From the IMG/VR virus record IMGVR_UViG_3300047375_000030, positions 1 to 30,315 of that record: 30,315 nt of DNA, one strand, 5' to 3'. The notes beneath the pieces are model-generated. The model was not told the DNA's origin and did not search any database. It worked only from the letters and a program-made list of their open reading frames with translations. The translations under genes were made by a program, and so were the position numbers. Positions 13,624-28,866 of the stretch are shown here, one piece after another; the stretch's first letter is position 1; each line of letters begins with the position of its first letter. This DNA comes from a virus.

Positions 13624-13651
13624 TATAACGTGCTTTTTATTTATTTTGCAT
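13624..13651 (-). promoter_or_regulatory. Late promoter-like motif A (portal unit)
   Basis: On the minus strand ATGCAAAA (13651-13644), then 13 bases, then CGTTATA (13630-13624), 14 bases before the ATG at 13609. A terminator lies directly upstream. It is identical in both boxes and spacing to motif B at 17252-17279. Confidence 0.65.
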
Positions 13652-13663
13652 CTATACTATTTA

Positions 13664-13693
13664 TAAAAAAAATAGGGAGATTTCTCCCCCTAT
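13664..13693 (-). terminator. Intrinsic terminator after the tube-like gene
   Basis: On the minus strand ATAGGGGGAGA pairs with TCTCCCTAT (one bulged G), followed by eight T residues. It separates the tube-like gene from the portal unit. Confidence 0.8.
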
Positions 13694-13721
13694 AATTCAA
13701 TTAAACACAGAATAGTATTTT

Positions 13722-14252
13722 CTAAGATGGGCTAATAGCAGCTCCTATCGTAATTGCACTTATAACTCCAGTTGCACAGAAAAATGCAGGAAGTTGCTCT
13801 TGAGCAGTAAAAGTCATATTGAATCCTGTAAAGTCTGCTAACGCAGTTCCAGTTCCAATAGTCCCTGCTGAAGTGTCAGCACCGTTGTAAGCTCCAACTA
13901 AGAAATAATTTCCGTTAAAGTCTTGTACGAATACGTGAGGATTTCCTTTAGCTACGTCTTGTAACTCAGCTTGAGTTTCTTTATCTAATTTTTGAAATTG
14001 TACGTTGACATTTTGGTCGTAGTATACAGTCCCGTTTTCAGCAGAGGCAGTAATCGTTTGCTCTAACCCTGAAGAACCTGGCTTAACTAAATACTCATAA
14101 CCTGAAGGAGTTGAACTAATTGCAGTCACTTCCGCTCCTGAAATTGTCAAGTCTCCTAGTAAACCATAGTCAACTAGAATGATAGATTTTATACCTCCTA
14201 CTCCTTTAGTACAAGGTAAATTTCTACCAGTTGATAATATTGAACAGCTCAT
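13722..14252 (-). CDS. Putative major tail (tube) protein, 176 aa
   Basis: This is a beta-rich protein beginning MSCSILSTGRNLPCTKGVGG, a start I remember from structural proteins of Bacteroidetes phages. The body has alternating strands (KSIILVDYGLLGDLTI, VNVQFQKLDKETQAEL, HVFVQDFNGNYFLVGAYNG) and ends FNMTFTAQEQLPAFF, typical of the tail-tube fold in which a final strand closes the sheet. It is flanked by strong terminators on both sides, as expected for an abundant structural product. It starts at ATG 14252 with no motif of its own, so it may rely on readthrough from the capsid gene. It could instead be a head decoration protein. Confidence 0.6.
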   Translation of the reverse strand: MSCSILSTGRNLPCTKGVGGIKSIILVDYGLLGDLTISGAEVTAISSTPSGYEYLVKPGSSGLEQTITASAENGTVYYDQNVNVQFQKLDKETQAELQDVAKGNPHVFVQDFNGNYFLVGAYNGADTSAGTIGTGTALADFTGFNMTFTAQEQLPAFFCATGVISAITIGAAISPS

Positions 14253-14275
14253 ATTTATATTTTTTTAAAAAAAAA

Positions 14276-14302
14276 GGGTAAGTAGGTCGACCCCACCTAC
14301 CC
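14276..14302 (-). terminator. Intrinsic terminator after the major capsid gene
   Basis: On the minus strand an 11-bp stem (with two G-U pairs) between 14302-14292 and 14286-14276 has a 5-base loop and is followed by a T-run. It only pairs fully as minus-strand RNA, which confirms its direction. Confidence 0.85.
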
Positions 14303-14325
14303 TAAATTTTGGTTAATTTAATTTA

Positions 14326-15285
14326 TTAAGAATAAACTACAACGTCAGAAGAGATACCATAGTTTACAGAACCAGAGAATCTTGCGATAACTCTTGCGTT
14401 TTGTGAACCGTCTAGGTCTCCCATATCTAGAAGTTTTACTTCATTCATATTTGAAACTAAAGAAGTTCCAAAGAAAATATTTGATCTTTCTGCAGCAAAC
14501 ATAGTGTTGTTAGCCATTCCTGGAGCTACAAACACTTTTACTCCGTCAAAAGATAATGAACCATTGTTCCACCACTGCGTACCCATATTGTTTACACCGT
14601 TAGCTCCTAGTCCATTTGCTCCGAACCCTCCTAATTGTCTTACATAAGCTCTTGCTACGTTTTGAGATACATATAAGTATAAGTCCTCTTTTCCGTATAA
14701 AGCAGAAGGAATTTCATCTACAACTTTACCCATTTCAGCAATTACGTTAGCAGAGTCAACACCACCTGCAACTGCAGTAATTTTTTGAGCAGCAGGAATA
14801 GTAGCGTCAGCAGCAGCTAAAGTTACTAGTCCGTCATATTCTCCTGCATTAGCATTAACACCAGACCAGATAGTTTGTTCTGTTTTTTGTGCAATTTCTG
14901 CAGCAACGTGAGCTAAGATAAAGTCAGCAAAAGATGGAGGCAGGTTTTTGAACCCACTGAATCCCATACTTTGAGCTTCCCAGTCAGATAAAAAGTCTTG
15001 CTTACATAATTGTAAGTTAACTTGTAGGTTAGTTGGCTCTAATAATCTTTCTGTTAAGTCTATAGTAGACGTTGGAGAAAAATCACAAGTAGCATCAACT
15101 ACTAAGTTGTTAGTAGCAACTTTCTTAATTACTTCTTTATAATTAATATTTGGTTTTACAGAGATACCACCGTCCTCAATAGTACTAGCAGATAAAAGAG
15201 CAGCCGCAATATATTGATTTGCGAACTCTCCTGCATAAGTAGTAGTAATGTTAGTAGTAGTAGCTAAATTTACATTTCTTTTCAT
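14326..15285 (-). CDS. Major capsid protein, HK97-fold candidate, 319 aa
   Basis: Length, position and composition fit a major capsid protein: 319 residues, rich in Ala, Asn and Gly, directly after a scaffold-like gene and before a strong terminator. Features seen are a flexible N-terminus, a long helix with DFILAHVAAEIAQKTEQTIW (about 120-140, spine-helix-like), a Gly-rich loop (GGFGANGLGANGVNNMG) and C-terminal strands (DGVKVFVAPGM, ARVIARFSGSVNYGI). There is no protease domain in the chain; the XkdF-like protein upstream would process it. The start is ATG 15285. HK97 fold is inferred from context and pattern, not from a decisive motif. Confidence 0.8.
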   Translation of the reverse strand: MKRNVNLATTTNITTTYAGEFANQYIAAALLSASTIEDGGISVKPNINYKEVIKKVATNNLVVDATCDFSPTSTIDLTERLLEPTNLQVNLQLCKQDFLSDWEAQSMGFSGFKNLPPSFADFILAHVAAEIAQKTEQTIWSGVNANAGEYDGLVTLAAADATIPAAQKITAVAGGVDSANVIAEMGKVVDEIPSALYGKEDLYLYVSQNVARAYVRQLGGFGANGLGANGVNNMGTQWWNNGSLSFDGVKVFVAPGMANNTMFAAERSNIFFGTSLVSNMNEVKLLDMGDLDGSQNARVIARFSGSVNYGISSDVVVYS

Positions 15286-15289
15286 TTTA

Positions 15290-15910
15290 TTATTTTTTAT
15301 TGATATTATTTAATTTAGACAGAACTCTATCCATTGTTGTTTGAGGTCTGTTTTGTCCATACGTAAACCCTTCATTTTGTTGTTTAGAGGGTGCGTGAGC
15401 TAAAGGTTTTCTAGCAGGAGTCTTAGACATTTTTTCTTTTACCTTGTCTACTTCGCCATATTTCTTTTTAAGCTCTTCAATTTCTTCTTTTACTTCCTCG
15501 ATAATTGGGGATACTACTTCTACAACTGCAGCAACTATATCTCCAACTTCGTCTATTACTTCTTCAGGAGCTTCAACGATAATTTCTTCTTCTTCTAAGT
15601 CTTCCTTAATGTCTTCTTTTTCGTCTTTGATTCCGTCTTTGTAACCTTCTTCTTCAGCTTCGTCTATTGACTCTAATCTTAGTTCGTCAATTAAGCCTTC
15701 TTCTTTTACTATTAGCATTCTACCGTCTTCTATCATATACTCGCCTTCTGGTAAAGGAACTCGAGAGTCTTCAGTGACAATAAAAACGCTTTCTCCCTTA
15801 TCGTAGCTATCGGCAAATATTCTAGTACCGTTGTCCAGGATAAGTTCTTCTAGTTCAACTTGAACTCCTAGGAGTGTGTTGATCTTTTTTAACATTTCAC
15901 TTGCTTTCAT
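15290..15910 (-). CDS. Scaffold-like capsid assembly protein, 206 aa
   Basis: Residues 1-75 form a small beta domain (VELEELILDNGTRIFA, VPLPEGEYMIEDGRMLIV). It matches a domain I remember just upstream of Bacteroidetes phage capsid genes. Residues 76-160 are extremely acidic and helical (DGIKDEKEDIKEDLEEEE) with coiled-coil spacing. The C-terminal 45 residues are basic (KTPARKPLAHAPSKQQ). An acidic helical middle with a basic tail is typical of scaffolding proteins. It lies four bases before the capsid gene, in the same unit. Confidence 0.7.
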   Translation of the reverse strand: MKASEMLKKINTLLGVQVELEELILDNGTRIFADSYDKGESVFIVTEDSRVPLPEGEYMIEDGRMLIVKEEGLIDELRLESIDEAEEEGYKDGIKDEKEDIKEDLEEEEIIVEAPEEVIDEVGDIVAAVVEVVSPIIEEVKEEIEELKKKYGEVDKVKEKMSKTPARKPLAHAPSKQQNEGFTYGQNRPQTTMDRVLSKLNNINKK

Positions 15911-15940
15911 TATTTATTATTTAATTATTAATGTTTATTA

Positions 15941-16402
15941 TTAATTCCAGAAATTTCCCATTCCTGTATAGTCAGTCACTTCTCTATATTTAGACTTTGC
16001 TTCGTCTGACAAACTCTGAGCATTATCTACTCTTTGTTTTAAATTTTCATAATCATAGTAAACTTCACTAGGAGGAATACCTAACTCATCTGCAGCTATT
16101 TCTAATTTAGTTAAACTAGCTTTTAATATTTCTGCAGATTCTTCTAAATATCTTACACTACCATTTATTACATAGTCATCTAGATTATATTTCATTCTAA
16201 AGTCATCGTAAGCATCTATTACTTCGTCTCCTAACTCGTAGGCTAAGTAACTAGCGTCTGACTCTGCTTCCTCAAAACTATCTACTTCATTTTCTATGTC
16301 ATCTACTAAGGATAAGTCTATTTTTCTCTTTGTGCTTAATACTGCGAAAACTTTATTGTCTTCTGAGTATAGTTTGTTAAGTATGTTTTTTAATGCTTTC
16401 AT
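15941..16402 (-). CDS. Paralog 3 of a tandem trio, helical, 153 aa
   Basis: This is the third member of a tandem family. It shares an N-terminal pattern ILNKL...LSTKRKIDLSLVDDI with its two upstream neighbours, and a later ADELGIPPSEVYYDYENLKQ with paralog 2. It is highly acidic (EAESDASYLAYELGDEVIDA) and helical. It starts at ATG 16402, three bases after paralog 2 stops. The trio stands between the protease and scaffold-like gene, so internal head proteins are a fair guess. No known family is recognised. Confidence 0.7.
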   Translation of the reverse strand: MKALKNILNKLYSEDNKVFAVLSTKRKIDLSLVDDIENEVDSFEEAESDASYLAYELGDEVIDAYDDFRMKYNLDDYVINGSVRYLEESAEILKASLTKLEIAADELGIPPSEVYYDYENLKQRVDNAQSLSDEAKSKYREVTDYTGMGNFWN

Positions 16403-16405
16403 ATT

Positions 16406-16837
16406 TTATACTGATAATGATTCGTCTCTAAATTCTTGTTTTTGTTCTTCAAAAGTCAATAAATATCTACGACCTTCAGATATTAATTCTCTGTGCTGAG
16501 AATAACTAGGATAAATTTGATCTACCATTATTCCTAACTCATTTGCACTTTCTTCAATTTTATCTAAAATTTGTTCATCTTTATCTAAGTCTGCTTCGGT
16601 TGCTAAAGCCTCTCCTCTATTAAAATAAATAGTATAAATTTCTCTTCCTGCTACATACCATTGATCGAATTTTTCAGGAAAAAACTCTTGAGTAAAATAA
16701 TTTAAAGCATCTACTTCTTCTTGTAGTCCTGATGCATCTGAATAAGCAAACTCATCTAAAAGACTTAATTCTACTTTTTTAGAAAGCTCAGTTCTATTCT
16801 TTTTTAGTTTATTAAAGACTGTTTTTTTTATGTTCAT
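16406..16837 (-). CDS. Paralog 2 of a tandem trio, helical, 143 aa
   Basis: The second member begins MNIKKTVFNKLKKNRTELSK and continues KVELSLLDEF, closely matching paralog 1 (KLKKGRQETLSKKVDLALVDDF). The middle is acidic and the ANELGIMVDQIYPSYSQHREL segment aligns with paralog 3. Its ATG at 16837 is three bases after paralog 1 stops. Equal spacing in the trio indicates one operon and tandem duplication. The function is unknown; capsid-internal or assembly proteins are possible. Confidence 0.7.
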   Translation of the reverse strand: MNIKKTVFNKLKKNRTELSKKVELSLLDEFAYSDASGLQEEVDALNYFTQEFFPEKFDQWYVAGREIYTIYFNRGEALATEADLDKDEQILDKIEESANELGIMVDQIYPSYSQHRELISEGRRYLLTFEEQKQEFRDESLSV

Positions 16838-16840
16838 ATT

Positions 16841-17233
16841 TTAATATTCAAGTTCGTAAAATCCTTCTGCTGCAGTTTCTATTCTGCTTTGAGCTTCAGA
16901 TAATATATTTCTATTTGCTTCTATTTGACTAATATTTGCTTTTAAATCTCCTGGAACTTCTAACCCTAAATCATTAAAAGACCTAACTATGTCTTCAGAT
17001 ATTATATTAGCTGCATCAATTTCTCTCAAAATATCAGTTACTATAAGAGTTTTAGCGTCTATTTGTCTAGCTATATTTCCTAAGTCATCAATTAAACTAT
17101 TCGTTTGTAAATCTATATTATTAAAAATACTTTGAAAATCGTCAACTAAAGCTAAGTCTACTTTTTTTGAAAGAGTTTCTTGTCTTCCTTTTTTAAGTTT
17201 GTCTAAAATAACTTGGTTGAATTTTATAGGCAT
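16841..17233 (-). CDS. Paralog 1 of a tandem trio, helical, 130 aa
   Basis: The first member begins MPIKFNQVILDKLKKGRQET and contains LSKKVDLALVDDF, the core shared with the next two genes. The rest is one long helical region (IARQIDAKTLIVTDILREID, ANRNILSEAQSRIETAAEG). The FNDLGLEVPGDL segment corresponds to the LGI segments of the others, but the tyrosines are lost. It is the first gene after the promoter-like site at 17252-17279, with 18 bases between the CGTTATA box and the ATG. The function is unknown. Confidence 0.7.
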   Translation of the reverse strand: MPIKFNQVILDKLKKGRQETLSKKVDLALVDDFQSIFNNIDLQTNSLIDDLGNIARQIDAKTLIVTDILREIDAANIISEDIVRSFNDLGLEVPGDLKANISQIEANRNILSEAQSRIETAAEGFYELEY

Positions 17234-17251
17234 ATTCTTGTTTTATATAGT

Positions 17252-17279
17252 TATAACGAAAGGTTTATTTTTTTTGCAT
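17252..17279 (-). promoter_or_regulatory. Late promoter-like motif B (capsid unit)
   Basis: On the minus strand ATGCAAAA (17279-17272), then 13 bases, then CGTTATA (17258-17252), in the 47-base gap before the three paralogs, scaffold-like gene and major capsid gene. No terminator is visible just upstream. Confidence 0.65.
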
Positions 17280-17280
17280 T

Positions 17281-17469
17281 TTACCCAGTTATTCTACCTA
17301 TACCCTGAGCCCATAAAGAACCGTCACAGCACTCTCTTGAATAAGTGTTCTGATCTTTACAATAACACGCTCTGGAGCTATTACTAGGACTAGCAGGATT
17401 CCACCTTGCAGCATAAGGCTGAGCTTGTCCTCTTCTGTTTGATTTATTTATTTTTTTTCTTACTGGCAT
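17281..17469 (-). CDS. Small Cys-rich basic protein, 62 aa
   Basis: A basic N-terminus (MPVRKKINKSNRRGQAQPYA) is followed by four cysteines in ACYCKDQNTYSRECCDG and a hydrophobic end SLWAQGIGRITG. The C-x-C...CC pattern with WAQGIG I remember from small proteins in Bacteroidetes phage head gene clusters. Metal binding or cross-linking is possible. Its ATG at 17469 overlaps the protease gene by 26 bases, so it is made together with the protease. It could be a minor capsid or cement protein; this is a guess. Confidence 0.7.
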   Translation of the reverse strand: MPVRKKINKSNRRGQAQPYAARWNPASPSNSSRACYCKDQNTYSRECCDGSLWAQGIGRITG

Positions 17470-18385
17470 TTATAAGGAGTTTTTTAATTCTAAGTAGTTT
17501 GACACCTGCTTCTATTTGTGAAAGTTTTTCTTTGTCTATTTGGTCTAGTTTTTTTATAGCCCAATTAACGCCAGATTTTCCACCCCAGGCATCGTACATT
17601 ATAGCTCCGCATCCGTCTTCATAACTACCTCCGCTATTTGCTTCGTGTCTTTTATAAGATGCCATTCTAGCTATAGTGTCTCTAGATATGTTTTCTCTAT
17701 TTGCTAATTGACTAGCTCTAGTCCAACCTACTGGAGTTCCACAGCTTGAACCGTTTTCCTTTTTATACTTTAAGGCTTTCTTTGCGTTATTAACTGCAGA
17801 GTCAGGATAGTCATTATAAGTTTCTAGCTCTACTTCATTTAACTCATCTTTGATTTTTTCTTTAGGTCTTTCCTCTTTGTCTAAAAAGAATCCTTCTATA
17901 CTGAATCCTTTAACAGAACCGTTTTTTACAAAGTCATTCCAGATTTCATCATTGTTTACTTTGACAGCTCCCATCCACGTTCCTACTGGGACATCCATAT
18001 TATATAAAGAAGTTTTGTCTTTCTGTTTGTCTTCTACTATCCAGGACTCTACAAGTGTTAACCCTTCAATATCAAATTTGTGTTCTAGTGTAGCGTTGTT
18101 TTGTTTTCCTTTCATAAGAAATAACTCACTAGCTTTTTTTACAGTTTCTTTAGAGAAGTATATATAGTACTCTTCTTTTCCGTCTTTCCTGTAAATAGTC
18201 TTATTAGGTATAAGTAAAGCTCCCATAAGAATTTTTTTCTCATCGTCTATAGACTGTAGTTTAACTTCTTTTTGGTCGTTTAAGGCTACAAAGTTTTCTT
18301 CTATAGCAGGACTTTCTACGATACTGATTGCATCTATGCCTCCAAACTCGTCTTCTTCGTCTATTATTAATTCAACTATTTTCAT
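17444..18385 (-). CDS. Prohead protease, XkdF-like, with C-terminal extension, 313 aa
   Basis: Residues about 1-175 fit the XkdF-type phage serine protease: ILMGALLIPNKTIYRKDGKE, YIYFSKETVKKASELF, ATLEHKFDIEGLTLVESWIV (with the conserved EH and ESW), VPVGTWMGAVKV and VKGFSIEGFF. H in LEHKF and S in ESW or GFS are the likely catalytic group; I cannot decide which from sequence alone. Residues about 210-290 (SSCGTPVGWTRASQLANREN, ARMASYKRHE, DGCGAIMYDAWGGKSG) form a separate small domain also found, from memory, at the end of other phage head proteases. Its start is ATG 18385, five bases after the CGTTATA box at 18391. Confidence 0.8.
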   Translation of the reverse strand: MKIVELIIDEEDEFGGIDAISIVESPAIEENFVALNDQKEVKLQSIDDEKKILMGALLIPNKTIYRKDGKEEYYIYFSKETVKKASELFLMKGKQNNATLEHKFDIEGLTLVESWIVEDKQKDKTSLYNMDVPVGTWMGAVKVNNDEIWNDFVKNGSVKGFSIEGFFLDKEERPKEKIKDELNEVELETYNDYPDSAVNNAKKALKYKKENGSSCGTPVGWTRASQLANRENISRDTIARMASYKRHEANSGGSYEDGCGAIMYDAWGGKSGVNWAIKKLDQIDKEKLSQIEAGVKLLRIKKLLINASKKKNK

Positions 18386-18390
18386 ATTAG

Positions 18391-18418
18391 TATAACGGTT
18401 TTAAATTAGTTTTTGTTT
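18391..18418 (-). promoter_or_regulatory. Late promoter-like motif C (protease unit)
   Basis: On the minus strand AAACAAAA (18418-18411), then 13 bases, then CGTTATA (18397-18391), exactly filling the gap between the tape measure stop and the protease ATG. Only five bases separate the box from the start codon. Confidence 0.6.
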
Positions 18419-20152
18419 TTATCCTATTGTCGCTCCCTGGACAATATTCCTATCCAGACTTTGAGCAGTAGTTACATCATTACTAACAACGTATGCTCTA
18501 ACAGGTTCTTGAGTCTGACCTGTAATAGCTTCTGCTAATTGGTTAGTATCGCTTTGACCTACTATATTAAAAGCAGGAGGGGTAAATGTAGGTTTTTGTG
18601 CTGCAGGAGTTCCACTTGAAGTCCCACCAACACTAGCTGCAACTTTTTTAGTTCCTTTTACAGCACTAATTATCCCGCCTATAACACCTGCGGCAGTTGC
18701 GGCATAAGCAATTAAAGGTAGTATAGCTTTTGGAAAACCTAACTTTAAAGTTTCTCCTAAACCACTAGCTACCGCTTCTCCACCTTTTGCAGCATCTAAG
18801 TCAGCTTCAGCAGAGACAATACTAGCTTTATTTTTTAACGCTCCTATATCTACTAAAAACGCTTGAGCGGCTAATAATTGTTTTGCTAGTAAAGCAGCTT
18901 TACCTAATTTAGTTTCCTCTCCTAATAATTTAGCAGTATTATCTAAAGTGTCCTGAGCAAACTTTCTTTCCTTTTCTTGAAACGCTAACTCTGAATCTAA
19001 TTTTTCTTGAGCATTTTTTATTCTTAATTCCTTTTCTAAATTATCGTAATAAGTATTTACTGCTAATTTTGCATTTCCTTTTAATCCTTCTGCAATTTCT
19101 AACTCTTCAATTTCTTTTAATGCCTTTTCTCTATCTAGATCAATTCTAGTTTGTTCATCTACTACAGCTTGAGCTTCTATTTTATCATTATAGCTTTTCC
19201 TTATTTGACCTAATCTTTCTATATCGTCTATAGTAAGTTGAGTCATTTCTTCTAAATGTTTTTTATAAGCATCAAACTCTTTTTGATATTGTTTTTGTTT
19301 TTCTGCAAATCTTTTATCTGCTTCTGTTTTTTCTATATTAGTTAAATTATTTTCAAAACCTGCTTTTCTGTTTTTAAGTTGTAGTAATTGTTTTTCGGTT
19401 TCTTTAATACTTTTTTCTCCTTCTATTTCAATTTTTTCTGGGTCAAATATTAAATTAGCTAAACCACCGTATAAACCTTCAGTTAACCCAAAATCTTTTC
19501 CTAATGCTTTTCCTACAGAATCTATAGTTTCTAATAAAATAAATAACGGAAGACTAAGCATTTTTAAAATACCCTCTAAAATATCTTTATTTCTTTTTGC
19601 TGTATCTATTTGAGCTTGTTTTACTGCTTTTTGAGTAGTTAACTGAGCTTCTAAAGATGCTATAGTTTCATCTGTAGCTTTTATTTTAAGATCAAGAATT
19701 TCCTTTTCTGTTTTACCTTGTTGTTTTAATATGTTTTCAGAACCAGTTATATTTGCATACAAATCATTACTAGCTTTAACCTGTTCTTCTTGTATTCCTA
19801 ATAAAGTTTTAGTTTCAGCAGATACTCCGCTAATAGCCTCTTTTATATCGTCCCAGTAAGCATAGATAGTTCCTAAGGCTACTACTATAAGACCTATTCC
19901 TGTAGCTGCTATTGCACCCTTTAAACCTTTAAAAGAAAGAGATAAGTTTTTAATACCTGAAACTCCCTGAACAACCCCTTTTTGTAAATCCTGAAATTGA
20001 GTTATTGCTCCGCCTGTAGCTCTGTCTAATAATCTAGTAGCGTCTCTATTTTCTTTTATGGTTTTATTGAAATTGTCTAAAGCACCTTGTACGCCTCTTA
20101 TTTCTTTTTCAGCTTCTTTAGCTCCTTCTACTTTAACTTTTGCTACTGCCAT
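18419..20152 (-). CDS. Tail tape measure protein, 577 aa
   Basis: The chain is long, helical and Lys/Glu/Ala-rich, with two hydrophobic segments: IAATGIGLIVVALGTIYAYW (about residues 80-99) and PLIAYAATAAGVIGGIISAV (about 480-500). An extended coiled-coil region lies between them (for example KEILDLKIKATDETIASLEA). This arrangement is typical of tape measure proteins, which set tail length and reach the host membrane. At 577 residues it is short for the family, predicting a short flexible tail by the usual 1.5 angstrom per residue rule, about 85-90 nm. The start is ATG 20152, overlapping a 46-residue gene by 10 bases. Confidence 0.8.
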   Translation of the reverse strand: MAVAKVKVEGAKEAEKEIRGVQGALDNFNKTIKENRDATRLLDRATGGAITQFQDLQKGVVQGVSGIKNLSLSFKGLKGAIAATGIGLIVVALGTIYAYWDDIKEAISGVSAETKTLLGIQEEQVKASNDLYANITGSENILKQQGKTEKEILDLKIKATDETIASLEAQLTTQKAVKQAQIDTAKRNKDILEGILKMLSLPLFILLETIDSVGKALGKDFGLTEGLYGGLANLIFDPEKIEIEGEKSIKETEKQLLQLKNRKAGFENNLTNIEKTEADKRFAEKQKQYQKEFDAYKKHLEEMTQLTIDDIERLGQIRKSYNDKIEAQAVVDEQTRIDLDREKALKEIEELEIAEGLKGNAKLAVNTYYDNLEKELRIKNAQEKLDSELAFQEKERKFAQDTLDNTAKLLGEETKLGKAALLAKQLLAAQAFLVDIGALKNKASIVSAEADLDAAKGGEAVASGLGETLKLGFPKAILPLIAYAATAAGVIGGIISAVKGTKKVAASVGGTSSGTPAAQKPTFTPPAFNIVGQSDTNQLAEAITGQTQEPVRAYVVSNDVTTAQSLDRNIVQGATIG

Positions 20153-20283
20153 TTTATTTGTTTTTTTAATTTGTCTTTTGCTTCTTTAAAATTTGTAGGA
20201 AGTTTTCTTGCTCCCTGTGCAAACCGAATATTCTCAGTTTCTCCGTTTGCGTATTTTAGTAATTCTATTATATTTTTAATCAT
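20143..20283 (-). CDS. Small basic protein before the tape measure gene, 46 aa
   Basis: The frame runs from ATG 20283 to TAG 20143-20145. The product starts MIKNIIELLKYANGETENIR and ends in a strongly basic tail (EAKDKLKKQIKWQ). It begins nine bases after the upstream gene stops and overlaps the tape measure start by ten bases, which supports translation. It is too short for a domain call; a tail assembly helper is possible by position. Confidence 0.65.
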   Translation of the reverse strand: MIKNIIELLKYANGETENIRFAQGARKLPTNFKEAKDKLKKQIKWQ

Positions 20284-20292
20284 AATTTTATT

Positions 20293-22716: not shown

Positions 22717-23714
22717 TATCTAACATTGTTTATGTAATCAAATGACATATCAAAGTCAAATGTATATTCTATTAATTTATTATTTAATACTGTCTTTTTT
22801 ACTATATTATTTTTTCTAACATTGACTGGGACAACTTCTGTTTGACTAGGATTTGTAGGCTTTGTTCTAGTAAGCCAAACTTGTTCAGATAATAATAATT
22901 GTTCAAACCATTGGTTAGCCCATTCAGGATAGTAACCAGAACTTAATGTAATACTTGTATTTGCTATAGTATTATAAACTTGTTTAGTGTGTTGATTTAC
23001 ACTATAAGTTCCTGTAGAGCTTATTATATTTCTTTGAAACTGCTCTTGTTTTTTATTTGTAGTATTGACTGATTTTAAGAAAAACCATAAGTCTTGTAAT
23101 GCTCCAAATTTATTTACAAATGTAACTTTATTTCCGTCTCCGTATTTAGTACAGTCGACTCTTTCTATATTCATTTGTACTGCTGCAGGGCTCGAGCTTG
23201 AGTCTATTGAAGTATCTGTAGCTCCATAACTTTGATAACCTAAAGCTGCTGAAACATTTATATAAGGAATAGAACCTGCTGTGTTATTAGGTACATAAAT
23301 ATAATATTCATTATTAACTGTAGTATGATTAGGGTCTCCGCTCACTAACCAGGTAGGACGTGAACCAAAAGGAACTACAGGATTATCTCCTTCCATAAAA
23401 GTTCCGTAAGCATCATAACCTATATCAGTAAAAGTCGAACCATTTATTAATGAGTCTGAACTAGTATAAGCATTTACTACTGTAGATATAGATAAAGTTT
23501 GAGCTGTATACGTACCGTCAAAAGTAATACTTAAAAAGTCTAAACATAATTCTGATATTTCAAAAAGTACTGTAGCTGAGGGACTAGTGTCTTTTCTTAA
23601 AACGTATTGGGGACTAGCCGCTCCATTTATTGTTATTGAACAGGTTGCATAAGCTGCGTTAGCTCCTGCTGTTATAGTTTTATATTGGGGACTTCTTAAA
23701 GCTATTGCTGCCAT
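22716..23714 (-). CDS. Tail structural protein candidate, 332 aa
   Basis: This beta-rich protein is high in Ser, Thr and Asn with no catalytic motif. Features include MAAIALRSPQYKTITAGANA at the start, FVNKFGALQDLWFFLKSVNT near residue 200, and a C-terminal ending FDFDMSFDYINNVR. The FGALQDLWFF part resembles what I remember in phage tail proteins near the tail tip. It shares one base with both neighbours, so it is strictly coupled with the tail genes. A tail-tip or tube-associated role is likely; the family is not recognised. Confidence 0.6.
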   Translation of the reverse strand: MAAIALRSPQYKTITAGANAAYATCSITINGAASPQYVLRKDTSPSATVLFEISELCLDFLSITFDGTYTAQTLSISTVVNAYTSSDSLINGSTFTDIGYDAYGTFMEGDNPVVPFGSRPTWLVSGDPNHTTVNNEYYIYVPNNTAGSIPYINVSAALGYQSYGATDTSIDSSSSPAAVQMNIERVDCTKYGDGNKVTFVNKFGALQDLWFFLKSVNTTNKKQEQFQRNIISSTGTYSVNQHTKQVYNTIANTSITLSSGYYPEWANQWFEQLLLSEQVWLTRTKPTNPSQTEVVPVNVRKNNIVKKTVLNNKLIEYTFDFDMSFDYINNVR

Positions 23715-24295
23715 TAGTTTATTGTTATTATTAATTCGTTAGTTTCATCTGTTTGAGAAATTGCTAGTTGAACGTCTCTATCTAAAGCGTCTTCTAGTTC
23801 TCTTTCTAGTCTTTCTGTGTAAAATTCAAAAGGGTCAGAAAAGAAATAACTAGGTTTTAATCCTGCTAAATATATACTTCTAGAAATTAAAAAGACCATA
23901 GTTTTTCTAGGAATGAATCTACCTAGATCGTCTCTTACATTACTTAGTCCTGGTTTCTGAACTACCCACTGATCTATAGCTCCTCTTAATGAGCCTTGTC
24001 CTTTAAAGTTTCCTGTTCCAAATCTAAATTTACTTAATGGAGCTCTGTTGAATCTATGCTTTGCTCCGTCTGGCATTTTAGTTGGGTCTGCTCCCTGGAC
24101 TCCCTGGTCATAAAAGTTTGCATAAGGAGTTCCCTGAAAAGTTACTGTTATGTCTTCGTCTGTTTGTGAGACTTCACTTTTTAAACTATTGTAAAGTTCT
24201 CCGTCTGCATTATTAGTTTTTGCTAAATTATTTTTAGCAGCATTTAAAACTCTATCAGCATAGTCTTCTAATAATATTTTGACCTCATCTAGCAT
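23714..24295 (-). CDS. HK97-gp10-like tail completion protein candidate, 193 aa
   Basis: The N-terminus is a helix (LLEDYADRVLNAAKNNLAKT) followed by strands (EDITVTFQGTPYANFYDQGV), the alpha-then-beta layout of HK97 gp10-like and minor tail proteins. The YANFYDQGVQG segment matches the AxxxExG-like turn of that family in a general way. The chain is longer than gp10 and has an extra helical part (PFEFYTERLERELEDALDRD). It overlaps the next gene upstream by 7 bases. Moderate confidence for class, low for exact role. Confidence 0.55.
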   Translation of the reverse strand: MLDEVKILLEDYADRVLNAAKNNLAKTNNADGELYNSLKSEVSQTDEDITVTFQGTPYANFYDQGVQGADPTKMPDGAKHRFNRAPLSKFRFGTGNFKGQGSLRGAIDQWVVQKPGLSNVRDDLGRFIPRKTMVFLISRSIYLAGLKPSYFFSDPFEFYTERLERELEDALDRDVQLAISQTDETNELIITIN

Positions 24296-24762
24296 ATATA
24301 AATATCGTTTTCAACTGTTATGCTTACATTCATAGACCAACCTACTAACTCATTTTCAAACCTGTCATAGAAAGGAACAAAAGTAACGTCAGAACTTACT
24401 TGGTACATATCATTAAATAATTGACCTGATCTCATTTGTTCTACAAGTCTGTTCCCTACGCCTAGTTGAGTGTTAAGAATATCCTGTTCGTCTGTATTTC
24501 CTGTAAACTGATCTACTACTACAGCTTTGTTTATGTCTATAATATCCATAAGTAGAATAGTTAGATTATAAGTCAGGACTTGTCCGCTCTGGACTACGTT
24601 GTTAGTAATGATATGAGACAAAGGAAATATAGTTTGCTTTCTTAAGTCAACGTCTGATATGTCTCCATAAGTTACAGACTTTACAAAAGGACTAGCTAAC
24701 AACTGCTGTTCTAGCTTTTCCATTATTAAATAATAACTTCTTATTCCTCTTTTGTTACTCAT
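24289..24762 (-). CDS. Tail terminator-like protein candidate, 157 aa
   Basis: The start (MSNKRGIRSYYLIMEKLEQQ) is a helix, then strands and another helix (NTQLGVGNRLVEQMRSG), ending in a strand-rich part (ENELVGWSMNVSITVENDIY). Alpha-beta proteins of this size that sit between adaptor and tail genes are often tail terminators that cap the tube. The ending WSMNVSITVEND is a pattern I have seen in Bacteroidetes phages. It starts at ATG 24762, four bases after the frameshift product ends. Confidence 0.5.
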   Translation of the reverse strand: MSNKRGIRSYYLIMEKLEQQLLASPFVKSVTYGDISDVDLRKQTIFPLSHIITNNVVQSGQVLTYNLTILLMDIIDINKAVVVDQFTGNTDEQDILNTQLGVGNRLVEQMRSGQLFNDMYQVSSDVTFVPFYDRFENELVGWSMNVSITVENDIYIC

Positions 24763-24766
24763 TTTT

Positions 24767-25018
24767 TTATTTTTTATTTTTAATTCTAGCTAATTGTAAA
24801 TTACTTTTTTCTTTTATATACATTAAAGCACTTAAACACTTATGGAAATTAATCTTAGTCACTTCGTCTAGTTTAGTTACGTCTTCGTTTGCGAGTCTCC
24901 AGAGGGAATGATACCAACCGTATTTAACATTGAAGTTAGCTTCTCTTGAGAGATCAGGTTCTCCTTCTTGTTCAAAGAGCTCCTCATAACTTTCACTAAG
25001 TCCCTTTCTAAATTCCAA
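24767..25018 (-). CDS. Tail assembly chaperone, -1 frame extension (T part of G/GT)
   Basis: This reading frame has no ATG; only a TTG near 25033 precedes it, just after an in-frame TAA. It is better read as the continuation of the 24877-25506 gene after a -1 slip at the T-run 25025-25017. The join gives ...CMLFF-LEFRKGLSESYEELF... and a fused chain of 246 residues (163+83). The 83-residue extension contains KYGWYHSLWRLANEDVTKLD and INFHKCLSALMYIKEKSN, which I remember from the second tail-chaperone frame in Bacteroidetes phages. This mirrors lambda gpG/gpGT, where the T domain recruits tube subunits to the tape measure. A missed base in the homopolymer would also explain it. Confidence 0.75.
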   Translation of the reverse strand: MEFRKGLSESYEELFEQEGEPDLSREANFNVKYGWYHSLWRLANEDVTKLDEVTKINFHKCLSALMYIKEKSNLQLARIKNKK

Positions 25019-25506
25019 AAAAAAAGCATACAACCCATAACTAAATTAAGAGGCATCTGCTTCATTAAGTCCCAGTAAGTGTCTCCTTTATATTCTTCTA
25101 TCTCATAACTACCTTTATAGTTCTGGAGCACAGGTCTATATAAAACAGCCATAGCTTTGTGCATATTTTCCCAGTCTACTATGTAAGTGTCTACGTCAAC
25201 GTACTCTCCAAAAGTCATATCGTCTAGCTGAGGAATAAATCCAAACTCTAGCTTATCAAATTTCCATCTACTAATAAGTGGAGGTTTTTCGTTTAGAGCT
25301 GTATTGATCTGTTCGCAAACTTTAAATACATCGCTCATTCTTAGTTTCAAAGTGTTGTTAACTGGCAGACCACAGAATATTTCTAGCATCTTAATTGCTA
25401 TTTTTTCTTCTGATAGATTTTCGTCTGTACACTCTTTTAAAAACTTCTGATATTGCTCTAAAGTAATATCCTGCATTTTAGTAGGTACATTGATTTCTAG
25501 TTCCAT
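24877..25506 (-). CDS. Tail assembly chaperone, zero frame (G-like), 209 aa
   Basis: A helical protein with MELEINVPTKMQDITLEQYQ at the start and KLEFGFIPQLDDMTFGEYVD in the middle, then MAVLYRPVLQNYKGSY and MKQMPLNLVMGCMLFF. This resembles tail assembly chaperones that precede tape measure genes. The slippery heptamer T TTT TTT stands at codons 161-163 in correct phase. Without slipping, the ribosome continues for 46 more residues (residues 164-209) to a stop at 24877. It starts at ATG 25506, five bases after the CGTTATA box of promoter-like motif D. The overlap with the -1 frame is 142 bases. Confidence 0.72.
   Translation of the reverse strand: MELEINVPTKMQDITLEQYQKFLKECTDENLSEEKIAIKMLEIFCGLPVNNTLKLRMSDVFKVCEQINTALNEKPPLISRWKFDKLEFGFIPQLDDMTFGEYVDVDTYIVDWENMHKAMAVLYRPVLQNYKGSYEIEEYKGDTYWDLMKQMPLNLVMGCMLFFWNLERDLVKVMRSSLNKKENLISQEKLTSMLNTVGIIPSGDSQTKT
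25017..25026 (-). other. Programmed -1 frameshift slippery site
   Basis: On the minus strand C TTTTTTTTT GG. Zero-frame codons are CTT TTT TTT TGG, so the heptamer T TTT TTT sits in the canonical X XXY YYZ phase. A -1 slip gives TTG as the next codon and opens the 83-codon extension. Confidence 0.7.
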
Positions 25507-25511
25507 AATTA

Positions 25512-25539
25512 TATAACGTATAAATTAATTTTTTTAAAA
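25512..25539 (-). promoter_or_regulatory. Late promoter-like motif D (tail unit)
   Basis: On the minus strand TTTTAAAA (25539-25532), then 13 bases, then CGTTATA (25518-25512), five bases before the ATG of the tail chaperone. An intrinsic terminator ends just upstream, so a fresh start of transcription is needed here. Confidence 0.65.
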
Positions 25540-25540
25540 T

Positions 25541-25566
25541 AAAAAAGGGCAGCCTTCCGACCACCC
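25541..25566 (-). terminator. Intrinsic terminator before the tail unit
   Basis: On the minus strand GGGTGGTC-GGAA-GGCTGCCC forms an 8-bp stem with three wobble pairs and a GGAA loop, followed by six T residues. It pairs well only as minus-strand RNA. It ends the small-gene block. Confidence 0.8.
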
Positions 25567-25616
25567 TAAATTAAAACAACTTAACTAAGTTACCAAAATT
25601 ATTGGAATTATACTGC

Positions 25617-25781
25617 TTATCCTGCTATTACGAAATACAAAATCACCAAACTAAAAATTATAAACGCAGTTTTAAGCACCAGGAAAGTTGTTCCTTCCTT
25701 TCTAGGGCTTCTGCCCTGATTACTTCTATATTGTCTCATTACTCTTTTCTTATTCTTTATATGAAATTCTTGCTCAGTCAT
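25617..25781 (-). CDS. Small basic membrane protein, 54 aa
   Basis: The frame runs from ATG 25781 to TAA 25617-25619. The first 30 residues are very basic (KNKKRVMRQYRSNQGRSPRK). The last 24 form one hydrophobic segment (TFLVLKTAFIIFSLVILYFV). A basic cytoplasmic part with a C-terminal anchor is seen in small phage membrane proteins of many roles. Its ATG shares one base with the upstream stop, so it is coupled to the other membrane protein here. The function is unknown. Confidence 0.7.
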   Translation of the reverse strand: MTEQEFHIKNKKRVMRQYRSNQGRSPRKEGTTFLVLKTAFIIFSLVILYFVIAG

Positions 25782-25936
25782 TACGTCAGGAATAACATAT
25801 TAAAAATATTATACAGTAGTTTACTTAAAGCCATAACAGTTATAATCATAAAAGCTGTTGAAAATGCTATAGTACTAAATTGAATTATTAGTCCTGCATA
25901 AAAACTAATAAAGTCATCTAATTTCTCTTTTGTCAT
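25781..25936 (-). CDS. Small hydrophobic membrane protein, 51 aa
   Basis: The frame runs from ATG 25936 to TAA 25781-25783. After MTKEKLDDFISFYA the rest is hydrophobic, with about 35 residues that could form two short membrane segments (GLIIQFSTIAFSTAFMIITV, then ALSKLLYNIFNMLFL). It lies three bases after the 49-residue gene and overlaps the next by one base. A second holin-like or superinfection-exclusion protein is possible. No known family. Confidence 0.7.
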   Translation of the reverse strand: MTKEKLDDFISFYAGLIIQFSTIAFSTAFMIITVMALSKLLYNIFNMLFLT

Positions 25937-25939
25937 AGT

Positions 25940-26089
25940 TTATTTTTTATAGTTTGTTTTGTTAATAATATTTCCTTCTAAGTCTACTATAGTATATCCT
26001 TGAGCTGCTAAAAGCCTTACAGCTTTATTTTGTTCTTTAGCTCGTTCCTGGATTCTATAGGTTTCGAATATTTCATTTGATATTGGCAT
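25940..26089 (-). CDS. Small helical protein, 49 aa
   Basis: The start chosen is ATG 26089 (MPISNEIFETYRIQERAKEQ), two bases after the stop of the zinc-ribbon gene, rather than the longer frame reaching back to 26125 that would overlap that gene. It has a helix rich in Glu, Arg and Lys followed by AAQGYTIVDLEGNIINKTNY, which could be a short hairpin. No family is recognised. Confidence 0.7.
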   Translation of the reverse strand: MPISNEIFETYRIQERAKEQNKAVRLLAAQGYTIVDLEGNIINKTNYKK

Positions 26090-26091
26090 AA

Positions 26092-26223
26092 TTATTTTTT
26101 TTGAGTTAATTCGGGAAGACCCCATTTGTTATAAGTTAACTGAAAGTCAAAGTCATAACCGCAGAACTCACATATAAAGTTGTCTGGGTCATTTAGTTTC
26201 TTACAGTTATCACATTTAGTCAT
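26092..26223 (-). CDS. Zinc-ribbon mini-protein, 43 aa
   Basis: The frame runs from ATG 26223 to TAA 26092-26094. It has two CxxC pairs, C4-x-x-C7 in MTKCDNCKKLND and C18-x-x-C21 in FICEFCGYDF, the spacing of a small zinc ribbon. A polar tail follows (YNKWGLPELTQKK). Such mini-proteins often bind nucleic acid or RNA polymerase; nothing here decides. The leader contains a perfect DnaA box. Confidence 0.7.
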   Translation of the reverse strand: MTKCDNCKKLNDPDNFICEFCGYDFDFQLTYNKWGLPELTQKK

Positions 26224-26242
26224 ATTATAAAGTTACAAAAAG

Positions 26243-26251
26243 TTATCCACA
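26243..26251. promoter_or_regulatory. Perfect DnaA box TTATCCACA
   Basis: The nine bases TTATCCACA match the strongest DnaA box class exactly. The site is in a non-coding stretch (26224-26265) between a terminator and the zinc-ribbon gene. One copy only is seen here. The phage also encodes a DnaA-domain-IV-like protein (28444-28866), which makes this a candidate origin or regulatory site. Confidence 0.6.
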
Positions 26252-26265
26252 TTTACAAATAGGGT

Positions 26266-26299
26266 AAAAAAAAAACCAACCCTCTCGACAGGACTGGTT
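26266..26299 (-). terminator. Intrinsic terminator after the structured non-coding stretch
   Basis: On the minus strand AACCAGTCC (26299-26291) pairs with GGGTTGGTT (26282-26274), including two wobble pairs, with loop TGTCGAGA, followed by a run of T residues. Confidence 0.8.
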
Positions 26300-26450
26300 T
26301 ATAAGAGTCGTAAAACACGTCAGAATTACATATTTTAGTTGCACCTAAAACATAGTTTATATCACTTCAACTCTTTACGCTTTCTCGAACTAGTTTTGAT
26401 CTAGTCCAATTATACGTTTGTAAGGTTACAAGTTTTATAGATATTCGAGT
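26300..26450 (-). ncRNA. Structured non-coding stretch, possible small RNA or 3' UTR
   Basis: About 150 bases without a usable frame (the two ATGs on the minus strand meet stops within two codons) lie between the 89-residue gene and a terminator. Paired segments seen are TTGTA/TACAA (26418-26431), ACTAG/CTAGT (26389-26405), both enclosed by CTCGAA/TTCGAG (26384-26389 with 26444-26449) as a three-way junction, and TTTTAG/CTAAAA (26333-26350). It does not fit a tRNA. It may be a processed small RNA, a protective 3' UTR or a protein-binding RNA. Confidence 0.45.
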
Positions 26451-26720
26451 CTACTCAACTTGACGCTTACTGTTTTTAAGTTTTATCATTTCTGATAGTA
26501 TTGGTTTAAATAACCTTTGCTGAAACTCTATAAGAGTAAGCATATTGTCAGCAGGTTCATCTTTTTTGAATGCAAAGTATTTTCTACATAAATCTAAATA
26601 CTTATCGTTACGTTTAGTGTTTAAAACATAAACAAAAGATTTTAACATATACACTGCAGCTTGAGGATTTTCTTTTAGGTCGTCTCTAAAAGTATTATTA
26701 GGATTCATTTTAAAACTCAT
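26451..26720 (-). CDS. Hypothetical helical protein under its own promoter, 89 aa
   Basis: The protein is helical and Lys-rich: FRDDLKENPQAAVYMLKSFV, then DKYLDLCRKYFAFKKDEPAD, then FQQRLFKPILSEMIKLKNSK. No catalytic motif, zinc site or membrane segment is visible. It starts at ATG 26720 with a 36-base leader to a host-type box and an inverted repeat, and is followed by the structured stretch and terminator. That makes it a single-gene unit, unlike the operons around it. An independent, possibly early regulator is an attractive guess, but nothing in the sequence proves it. Confidence 0.7.
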   Translation of the reverse strand: MSFKMNPNNTFRDDLKENPQAAVYMLKSFVYVLNTKRNDKYLDLCRKYFAFKKDEPADNMLTLIEFQQRLFKPILSEMIKLKNSKRQVE

Positions 26721-26756
26721 AAATTAAAAATTAAAGGTTATACATTTTTTACACTA

Positions 26757-26793
26757 CAAACATATAAAGTATGTGTGCAGTACACGTGCACAC
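26757..26793 (-). promoter_or_regulatory. Host-type -7 box with inverted-repeat operator candidate
   Basis: On the minus strand TATGTTTG (26764-26757) matches TAnnTTTG. No good TTG lies at the expected -33 distance. Instead GTGTGCA (26773-26779) and TGCACAC (26787-26793) form a 7-bp inverted repeat with a 7-base spacer covering that region. This suggests a protein-controlled promoter for the 89-residue gene. Confidence 0.5.
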
Positions 26794-26800
26794 TTAATTT

Positions 26801-26914
26801 TCAAGGTATGTATACTTCTCCGCATTTAGGACAGTAGAAATAAAAACCATTTTGTAATGAGCCTGTAGGAGTCATTTGTTTATCACATTTAAGACAGACT
26901 TTACCTGATTGCAT
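26801..26914 (-). CDS. Zinc-ribbon mini-protein after terminase, 37 aa
   Basis: The frame runs from ATG 26914 to TGA 26801-26803. Two CxxC pairs, C7-x-x-C10 (KVCLKCDKQ) and C28-x-x-C31 (FYCPKCGEV), form a classic zinc ribbon with little else. It overlaps the terminase large-subunit gene by 14 bases, so it is translated from the same message. It resembles the 43-residue ribbon at 26092-26223 in layout but not in detailed sequence. Confidence 0.75.
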   Translation of the reverse strand: MQSGKVCLKCDKQMTPTGSLQNGFYFYCPKCGEVYIP

Positions 26915-28061
26915 ATTTTCCATAATTAGGTCTGGCTAGTTTATTATAGATTCCGTAACGGAGGCTGTCTGTAAAATGGTTAAACTTGTCTTCAGGAGTG
27001 TTTAAGATATTTCCGTTCTTGTCTTCTTTCCATTTATAATTACGAAACTCTTTTATAGCGTTCTGGCTTTTCTTAGTTATATGTATAGTATATCTCTTTA
27101 ACATATCTATTCCAATATTAACTGAGTCTCTTCCTTTTGTGCTCGGTTTTATATTCCAACCGTATCTATAAAGTTCGTCTATTGTTTTCGGTTCTGCTGA
27201 GTCTGCATATATCTCTTCACGTCTTCCAACTCCCAGACTTAGTAATTCGTTATGAATATCTCTGTTTGTCATTCCTGTACGATATAACAACTCTTCTGCA
27301 TAAAGGTTAGTATCGTGAAGGTAAATTTTAGATATGCAAGTAGGGTCATTAGTATAGCCAAAGTCCATACCATAACTAACAAACTTTGCATTGTCAGGTA
27401 TTTTCTCAATTTCTCTAAACTGAAATATAGTTGCTTTACTTTGTCCGATCTCCCCTAGTCCATATATCCTCCAGTAGTTTTCGTCTGTGTATTGTAGTCT
27501 TTCTATTTCTTTTACTATCGACTCCTCCAGGAACTTATTGTCTTTATAAGTAGTCTTATAAAAGTCTGCGTCTTCTCTTACTTTTACTTTATCATAAATC
27601 CAGTGAAACTCGTCAGAAGGATTGTAGTCTAATATAATACGACCAACAGTTCTGAATACTAATTGATTCCAGTCTTCCCAGAATAATTCGTTAGCCTCAT
27701 TAATAAATAGTAAATCTCTTTTACGTCCTCTTACTTTTTGAGGTGAGTCTAAGGATATAAACTCTACTAGGTTTCCGTTTATCTTGTATTCGTGACTTGT
27801 CTTGTTATGGTCTTCCTCACTATAGAGCTCGTTGTTCTTTAGTATCTCAAAGAAATCTCTCATAGCTGAGGTTCTTAATGCAGGAAATGTTTTTCTACAT
27901 ATTGAAACTACTTTGTTTTTATTTCTTAGACAGTAACCAAATATTATCCAAATTAGTATATTATATGTCTTACCGCTACGTGACCCGCCCTGCTCTATTA
28001 TAATTTTTTTTTGGCTTTTTTCTAGATGCTTCCAAACTATGTTAGTTCTTAGGTCTCTCAC
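26901..28061 (-). CDS. terL: Terminase large subunit, 386 aa
   Basis: This is the DNA packaging motor and nuclease. ATPase motifs: Walker A GGSRSGKT (25-32), Walker B with catalytic Glu in DLLFINEA (116-123, E122), and a coupling-like segment around LDYNPSD (144-150). RNase-H-like nuclease acidic residues: D233 in YGMDFGY, D287 in YADSAEP and D365 in HFTDSLRY. The pattern fits the PBSX/Terminase_3 branch. The length is slightly short for TerL, but both domains are complete. It starts at GTG 28061-28059, overlapping the small-subunit stop as GTGA. The class by itself does not settle cos or headful packaging. This is one of the surest genes here. Confidence 0.95.
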   Translation of the reverse strand: MRDLRTNIVWKHLEKSQKKIIIEQGGSRSGKTYNILIWIIFGYCLRNKNKVVSICRKTFPALRTSAMRDFFEILKNNELYSEEDHNKTSHEYKINGNLVEFISLDSPQKVRGRKRDLLFINEANELFWEDWNQLVFRTVGRIILDYNPSDEFHWIYDKVKVREDADFYKTTYKDNKFLEESIVKEIERLQYTDENYWRIYGLGEIGQSKATIFQFREIEKIPDNAKFVSYGMDFGYTNDPTCISKIYLHDTNLYAEELLYRTGMTNRDIHNELLSLGVGRREEIYADSAEPKTIDELYRYGWNIKPSTKGRDSVNIGIDMLKRYTIHITKKSQNAIKEFRNYKWKEDKNGNILNTPEDKFNHFTDSLRYGIYNKLARPNYGKYAIR

Positions 28062-28384
28062 TCTACAACTTCTATTCTAAATTCTTTATTGTCTCCAGTG
28101 TCAATTTCCTGTCTAGGAACATAGCCTCTAGATTTACCTATAGTCTTTAAATAAAATATTATTGAAGTTTCTTTCTCGTTTTTAATACAGTCGAATAGTT
28201 TAGACTCTACAAAATCTATAGCAGAATTTCTTATGTCCTGGACTTTTGTTTTATAGTCTGGGTCATCCTCTAGCCATCTATAATGAGTTTGTCTACTTAT
28301 ACCTACTCTTTGACTTGCAGTTGAAACTATACCTAAACACTCCTCAAGAGCTTTAAGCATTTTATCTTTACTTTCTGTTTTCAT
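28058..28384 (-). CDS. terS: Terminase small subunit, 108 aa
   Basis: This is the DNA-recognition subunit of the packaging motor. An N-terminal helix-turn-helix is clear (LGIVSTASQRVGISRQTHYRW), followed by EDDPDYKTKVQDIRNSAIDF and an oligomerisation-like helix pair (ESKLFDCIKNEKETSIIFYL). A closing LKTIGKSRGYVPRQEID matches small terminase subunits of the phBC6A51/HTH type. It is followed directly by terL with a GTGA overlap. It starts at ATG 28384, 44 bases after the CGTTATA box, giving it the longest leader of the late units. Confidence 0.88.
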   Translation of the reverse strand: MKTESKDKMLKALEECLGIVSTASQRVGISRQTHYRWLEDDPDYKTKVQDIRNSAIDFVESKLFDCIKNEKETSIIFYLKTIGKSRGYVPRQEIDTGDNKEFRIEVVE

Positions 28385-28428
28385 TATATCTTTTTTATAG
28401 TGTCACATTTGTAACATTATTCTACTAA

Positions 28429-28456
28429 TATAACGGAAAATTTTTAAGTTTTATGT
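28429..28456 (-). promoter_or_regulatory. Late promoter-like motif E (terminase unit)
   Basis: On the minus strand ACATAAAA (28456-28449), then 13 bases, then CGTTATA (28435-28429). The upstream box lies within the end of the DnaA-like gene. It marks the border between the early and late arms. Confidence 0.65.
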
Positions 28457-28866
28457 ATAAGGGTATTATATAGCTTTTCCTTGTAAGTTAGTTTATCTAC
28501 AAGTTCATTTACTTGTTCTAAAGACTCAGAGGTTTTTAAGACTTTTAGTTTATCGAAAACAGTCAATAACTCTTCTGAGGATATGATTTCATTTTTAATA
28601 ATATTTAGCCAGGTTTGATATTCTGGTTTTCTTTTTTTTATTTCCTCAAACATATTTGTTCTATAAAGTATTGTAGAGTGGTCTGCAGACTTTCCTTTAG
28701 TATGATAATATTTAGCTATGCTTTCATAAGTCTTACTCTTTAGCTTTCTCATTATAAAGTCAAAGAAGGCTCTAGCGTCTACGTGGCTTTGTGTTCTTCG
28801 GTTCTCGAATATATCTGTCTCTGTTAAACTTATTACTAAGTTTGCTATCCTGTCGTATTCATTCAT
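28444..28866 (-). CDS. DnaA domain-IV-like DNA-binding protein, 140 aa
   Basis: Residues about 23-80 resemble the DNA-binding domain IV of the initiator DnaA: a helix (QSHVDARAFFDFIMRKLKSK), then TYESIAKYYHTKGKSADHST and ILYRTNMFEE. The ADHSTILYR segment (61-69) is close to the DnaA signature (G-x-DH-T/S-T-V-x-H/R). The AAA+ motor is absent; the rest is a charged helical tail. Such a protein could bind DnaA boxes and recruit or block host replication. It is the last gene of the early arm and starts at ATG 28866, one base after the ParB-like stop. The family call is good by motif; the role is inference. Confidence 0.75.
   Translation of the reverse strand: MNEYDRIANLVISLTETDIFENRRTQSHVDARAFFDFIMRKLKSKTYESIAKYYHTKGKSADHSTILYRTNMFEEIKKRKPEYQTWLNIIKNEIISSEELLTVFDKLKVLKTSESLEQVNELVDKLTYKEKLYNTLIHKT

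Follow-up and report, generated by a model that had tools for sequence, protein, structure and literature searches.

Transcription cascades built on a phage sigma factor and its late promoters are already known from the phages phiEco32, 7-11, SPO1 and T4. In T4 (gp55/gp33) and SPO1 (gp28 and gp33-34), a phage sigma factor replaces the host sigma factor for the transcription of later genes, and the T4 late promoter consists of a -10 element only, TATAAATA, activated by the sliding clamp. The systems closest in logic to the one described here are those of the phiEco32-like phages (phi32_gp36) and of Salmonella phage 7-11 (SaPh711_gp47), in which a phage sigma factor likewise redirects the host RNA polymerase to late promoters and the promoter sequence diverges together with the sigma factor, as it does in the phage group analysed here. 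The phiEco32 box is tAATGTAtA, with transcription starting 6-8 bp downstream, and the promoters of 7-11 are bipartite, GTAAtg-(16)-aCTA (PMC8948821); the phage sigma factor of the Kuravirus relatives of phiEco32 has been called an ECF sigma factor (PMC7881722). The locus presented below shares the logic of T4 and SPO1 and differs from them in the sigma subfamily and in the boxes. The phiEco32 and 7-11 phages are enterobacterial podophages with different boxes, and for them no constant placing of the start codon at the transcription start has been reported, whereas the group studied here keeps region 4 and a -35 box, has genomes of about 30 kb and is associated with a host primary sigma factor of the Bacteroidota type.

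The sequence studied was the IMG/VR virus record IMGVR_UViG_3300047375_000030 with a length of 30,315 nt (hereafter the window, meaning the whole stretch of DNA that was analysed). A direct repeat of 127 bases is present at its ends (1-127 and 30189-30315), and terminal direct repeats of 99-127 bases were also found in several relatives. Because of this terminal repeat, the genome is judged to be complete, with a length of 30188 bases (about 30.2 kb), and either circular or circularly permuted. Its minus strand holds nearly all of the genes. To judge by its homologues, the window groups with the dsDNA tailed phages of Bacteroidota: its terminase is 39% identical to that of Flavobacterium phages, and its protease and capsid are 43% and 30% identical to those of Nonlabens phage P12024. 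The hosts are probably marine Bacteroidota bacteria. The host remains inferred, since the search of bacterial genomes for a host link gave only two weak matches, to a Bacteroidia bin and a Cellvibrionales bin. The phage collection contained no isolate phage related at the DNA level or near-identical to the window, and no cultured member of its phage group was found. The head protease (17444-18385) is composite in its similarities: the N-terminal part matches Nonlabens phages, while the C-terminal part (about 181-300) has similar sequences in haloarchaeal tailed viruses, with up to 48% identity, and may represent a domain widely shared between viruses.

The exact motif AAAA-N13-CGTTATA occurs five times in the whole window, always on the minus strand and never on the plus strand, and each copy lies between genes or touches the edge of one, at the start of a putative late unit, as the first-pass annotation had described. 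Late promoter 1 (28429-28452; AAAA at 28449-28452 and CGTTATA at 28429-28435) is an exact match, and its AAAA box extends into the end of ORF 28444-28866. It lies upstream of the unit formed by the terminase small subunit (28058-28384, minus strand, assigned by position and homologues) and the large subunit that follows it (26901-28061, Pfam Terminase_3 and PHROG). Late promoters 2 (25512-25535) and 3 (18391-18414) have the form AAAA-N13-CGTTATA-N5-ATG and stand upstream of the first gene of the tail module (24877-25506) and of the head maturation protease (17444-18385, PHROG matches to protease/head maturation protease), respectively, both on the minus strand. Late promoters 4 (17252-17275) and 5 (13624-13647) carry the complete upstream box, ATGCAAAA-N13-CGTTATA, which had been noted earlier as complete at two sites. 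The former precedes the minus-strand gene 16841-17233 and the capsid block with the major capsid candidate (14326-15285), and the latter precedes the minus-strand gene 13190-13609 and the portal block with the portal gene (11230-13188). As previously stated, two of the sites directly follow terminators: terminator-like hairpins on the minus strand are situated just upstream of late promoter 2 (stem 25546-25567) and late promoter 5 (stem 13672-13693). Two details of the first-pass annotation need to be amended. The name tail chaperone is not supported, as no named family stands behind it for ORF 24877-25506 (phrog_32199, unknown function). The upstream box is exact as AAAA at all five sites, but it is better written CAAAA, or the whole motif as [GA]CAA-N15-CGTTATA.

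The 5' leader of the terminase unit (28385-28428) is conserved in close relatives. In some relatives (e.g., G001), the small subunit is extended in frame from an ATG that follows CGTTATA at a distance of 11 nt, and in the window this extension stops after four codons (ATGTTACAAATGTGA).

Counting in shuffled genomes, a check named in the first-pass annotation, showed that the strict motif would be expected on average 0.061 times (1000 dinucleotide-preserving shuffles), as against the five copies seen. CGTTATA alone is present nine times in the window, with 3.3 expected, and the four that lack the upstream box (1565, 10798, 12214 and 22237) are all inside genes. Only the strict motif carries signal, because the version relaxed to two mismatches gave no clear excess (37 versus 31). 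The scan of promoter-like matches with the sigma-70 consensus was not informative (83 matches compared with 69 in shuffles, sd 9).

The promoter of the host primary sigma type, known from F. johnsoniae as TTTG/TAnnTTTG (PMC6847099), is found in its -33/-7 order at the head of the early operon of the window and is absent at the five late sites, where the scan detected no TAnnTTTG, in agreement with the earlier claim. The only minus-strand TTTG-N18-22-TAnnTTTG pair located outside a known gene (3915-3886) stands directly after a terminator-like hairpin and heads the operon that runs through the helicase to the sigma factor. The pair consists of TTTG (3912-3915), N18 and TATATTTG (3886-3893), with an ATG 4 nt downstream (3879-3881), and the -7 element together with its spacing, TATATTTG-N4-ATG, is identical in four relatives. 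Since the -7 element of F. johnsoniae spans -12 to -5 (PMC6847099), the predicted early start is the A of the ATG at 3879-3881. The late sites with N5 share this geometry, as the first base of their box is also at -12 from the ATG. The operon encoding the sigma factor thus appears, on sequence evidence only, to lie under a host-type promoter. Elsewhere in the window, an inverted repeat GTGTGCACGTGTACTGCACAC (26773-26793) followed by TATGTTTG (26757-26764) is present upstream of ORF 26451-26720, and this region (26757-26793) looks like an operator beside a host-type -7 element that lacks a clear -33 box.

The proposed reader of the five promoters is encoded by ORF 1501-2097 (minus strand, GTG start), whose product of 198 aa comprises region 2, a linker and region 4. 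Profile and predicted fold identify it as an ECF-type sigma factor, which gives substance to the sigma-like factor that had been assumed; its binding to the core RNA polymerase and its part in initiation are inferred. The ECF model TIGR02937 was matched by all of the aligned family members (36/36, best 1.3e-10), including the window protein (7.7e-5). Because the latter scores below the curated cut-off of the model, it is regarded as a remote member of the ECF-type family. Taken alone, the window sigma gave a weak match to Pfam (E=0.04), and its best profile match to the PDB had an E-value of 0.25. The AF2 model (pLDDT 77; pTM 0.47, so that the domain arrangement is uncertain) predicts a helical domain (2-81), a low-confidence linker (82-105) and C-terminal helices with an HTH (108-194). 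The best 19 Foldseek matches in the PDB were ECF sigma factors or complexes holding one, although the best E-value was modest (6.7e-3). The structural matches among viruses include named phage ECF sigma factors, with a fold-level likeness to the ECF sigma factor of Cronobacter phage GAP52. The tblastn search of 50,697 phage records (E<=0.01) revealed neither a match of the window sigma in isolate phages nor sequence homology to phi32_gp36/SaPh711_gp47 of the phiEco32 sigma family.

Streptomyces sigma E and SigE, SigL and SigH of M. tuberculosis are examples of bacterial ECF sigma factors. The window sigma, like these, has regions 2 and 4 only, and in its proposed promoters, as in theirs, the -10 element starts with CGT and the -35 element has a CAA-like core. 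The window sigma differs from them in its divergent sequence and in being encoded in a phage early operon. The promoters of Streptomyces sigma E, such as CGCAAC...CGTCTT, have a spacer of 16-17 bp (PMC6767563), whereas the spacer between TGCAAA and CGTTAT, with -35 CAAAA and -10 CGTTATA present, is 14 bp, i.e., 2-3 bp shorter. A relative of the sigma gene is present in 32 of the 33 genomes studied in full, the exception being an 18-kb fragment. In one genome (G015, locus L205), the coding sequence of the sigma factor falls into two frames (G015:C1:24093-24663), although the promoters are intact; the split is either a metagenome assembly error or a sign of a decayed gene.

Related phages, in which the first-pass annotation had also suggested looking for the motif, were fetched with the sigma, terminase and capsid sequences as queries. 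Within their loci, the motif was found 126 times on the gene strand and once on the opposite strand, with a peak of spacing at 13, and it takes the form (TG/A)CAAAA-N13-CGTTATA, located most commonly exactly 5 nt before an ATG. When non-redundant copies of CGTTATA were considered, [GA]CAA was present at N15 upstream in 33 of 151 on the gene strand and in 0 of 100 on the other strand. CGTTATA is kept before the orthologues of the downstream genes while the flanks diverge: the box before terS is conserved in close relatives, and the box at N5 before the orthologues of 24877-25506 is kept down to about 40-48% protein identity.

The blind scan of all IMG/VR with TGCAAAA-N13-CGTTATA-N5-ATG as the query and a permuted box as the control detected at least 120 stretches with the motif and nine with the permuted motif. 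Among the matches listed, 111 of the 119 loci with the motif contain structural genes of the window's phage group. Within this listing, homologues of the window's 13190, 16841 or protease genes follow 106 of the 123 sites and none of the control sites, with 84 sites homologous to late promoter 5 and 19 to late promoter 4. The sigma factor is encoded in all of the tested group records of at least 22 kb (16/16, among the matches listed) and in none of the off-target or control records (0/15). The 62,650-base record behind locus L241 (G051), about twice the usual size, contains two sigma-like genes, one with a strong match (3.5e-53) and one with a weak match (8e-12).

These distributions bear on the possibility that an alternative ECF sigma factor of the host, and not that of the phage, uses the boxes as its promoters. 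Bacteroidota encode many ECF sigma factors, and the box resembles a generic ECF -10 element. We nevertheless consider this very unlikely, as almost all IMG/VR occurrences of the full motif are in phages encoding the window-type sigma (among the matches listed), the box varies with the clade of the phage sigma rather than with the structural genes, and the phage sigma would be left without an explained role.

The box at the same genes differs by sigma clade, being CGTTATA, TGTTATA (G011, G013), GGTTATTT (G006, G009, G012, G043; recognised by eye at orthologous starts and not by positional 6-mers) or CGTTATC (G017). In G016, G018 and G019 and in G040 and G041, the sigma gene is present and no clear equivalent box was found at orthologous starts. 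Mapped on the sigma tree, the box class requires 4 changes, with a minimum of 3 and a mean of 10.4 for shuffled labels. Similarity to the window sigma separates CGTTATA-positive from CGTTATA-negative genomes completely (AUC 1.000), whereas the structural genes separate them poorly (protease, AUC 0.614; capsid, 0.636). The capsids of G016, G018 and G019 are closer to that of the window than those of G007, G010 and G039, yet the box is absent from the first three genomes and kept in the latter three. The promoter class therefore seems to follow the sigma factor and not the structural genes that it precedes. Within region 2, Arg76 is present in 21 of 21 genomes with a C-first box and is absent in two of two genomes with a T-box and three of four with a G-box; G009 keeps Arg76 despite its G-box. 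We read the alignment as placing this residue within the stretch that corresponds to D-E-R-R of an ECF sigma factor. The genomes are related, so that the covariation of box and sigma depends on a small number of independent changes, and the pattern points to Arg76 as a specificity residue without proving it.

In the genomes G016, G018 and G019 (L206, L207, L210-L213), the capsid is related (64-67% identity), but the terminase is a different one and the sigma is divergent. At the places occupied by CGTTATA in the window, these genomes carry A/T-rich ACAATTT...TTTTTAAATAAAA stretches, possibly another promoter class.

The analysis of positional 6-mers, in which no motif was assumed, ranked CGTTAT or TGTTAT at -12 from the ATG first in three clades (13 occurrences with 0.08 expected, 6 with 0.05 and 11 with 0.01). 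No clear box emerged from it in the clade of the window itself, in which start distances vary, or in the G016/G018/G019, GGTT and G040/G041 groups. Likewise, an ATG follows at N5 in 35 of 151 non-redundant gene-strand copies of CGTTATA and in 1 of 100 on the other strand. Such a fixed spacing in many genes would also be expected if CGTTATA were a translation-initiation signal (a leader or a Kozak-like element) and not a promoter, and Bacteroidota ribosomes do start without a Shine-Dalgarno sequence and respond to the bases around the start codon (PMC6847099). However, a second box is present at a fixed upstream distance, the motif is found at only five of about 40 window genes, at unit starts and after terminators, and the distance of N5 applies to two of the window sites, the other three having 14-44 nt between CGTTATA and the ATG, so that a signal for translation is likewise very unlikely. 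We also regard it as very unlikely that a different phage regulator (activator or repressor) binds the boxes or that a phage RNA polymerase uses them, since, although the motif alone does not identify its reader, no polymerase-sized unassigned gene exists outside the tail module, the two-box geometry suits sigma regions 4 and 2, and the box covaries with the sigma factor.

We conclude, with a probability of about 0.88, that the five sites are phage late promoters recognised by the host RNA polymerase in association with the phage ECF-type sigma factor (1501-2097). This reading, which the first-pass annotation had put forward as an inference, gains its support from the observed conservation and fixed position of the sites, the ECF family and fold of the sigma factor, the co-occurrence of motif and sigma, their covariation by clade and the host-type early promoter. 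The physical recognition remains inferred, with neither biochemistry nor start mapping behind it. In the proposed mechanism, the host primary sigma factor would start the early operon at the TTTG-N18-TATATTTG promoter (3886-3915), and this operon would supply the helicase and the phage sigma. The latter would take the host polymerase to (TG/A)CAAAA-N13-CGTTATA before the five late units (terminase, tail, protease, capsid and portal), with region 4 reading CAAAA (-35) and region 2 reading CGTTATA (-10); the timing of these steps is inferred. Two of the late units would need a fresh start because they follow terminators. The late mRNAs would be leaderless or nearly so at two of the five window sites and at the position most frequent in relatives, because there the box is followed after 5 nt by the start codon, at the expected point of initiation. 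Both the start points and the leaderlessness are inferences, as no transcript was mapped. The mRNAs of F. johnsoniae mostly have leaders longer than 10 nt (PMC6847099), in contrast to the ATG placed at the predicted start in the window.

Compared with the cascades described above, the new elements are a sigma factor without detectable sequence homology to that of any isolate phage, a different two-box promoter, a box fused to the start codon and a large uncultured group of Bacteroidota phages. We found no phage sigma system reported for Bacteroidota phages, within a partial coverage of the literature. We also lean, with clearly less assurance than for the main conclusion, towards the view that the sigma factor and the promoter of this group co-evolved via several specificity switches (C, T or G as the first base of the -10 element, tracking the loss of the arginine in region 2), with promoters fused to start codons and leaderless late mRNAs.

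Bacteroidota are a major bacterial phylum of the sea and the gut, and a late-transcription switch of this kind was not found for their phages in the literature searched. Sequence alone, over many genomes, is enough to recognise the switch, the late promoters and the early host promoter. Since the box varies by sigma clade, the set of genomes offers a means of matching sigma residues to the bases that they read, and if the co-evolution reading is true, it would amount to a natural series from which the sigma-promoter code could be deduced. The predicted leaderless late mRNAs are relevant to the way in which Bacteroidota ribosomes initiate without a Shine-Dalgarno sequence, and the phage sigma with its promoter is a candidate orthogonal pair for Bacteroidota genetics.
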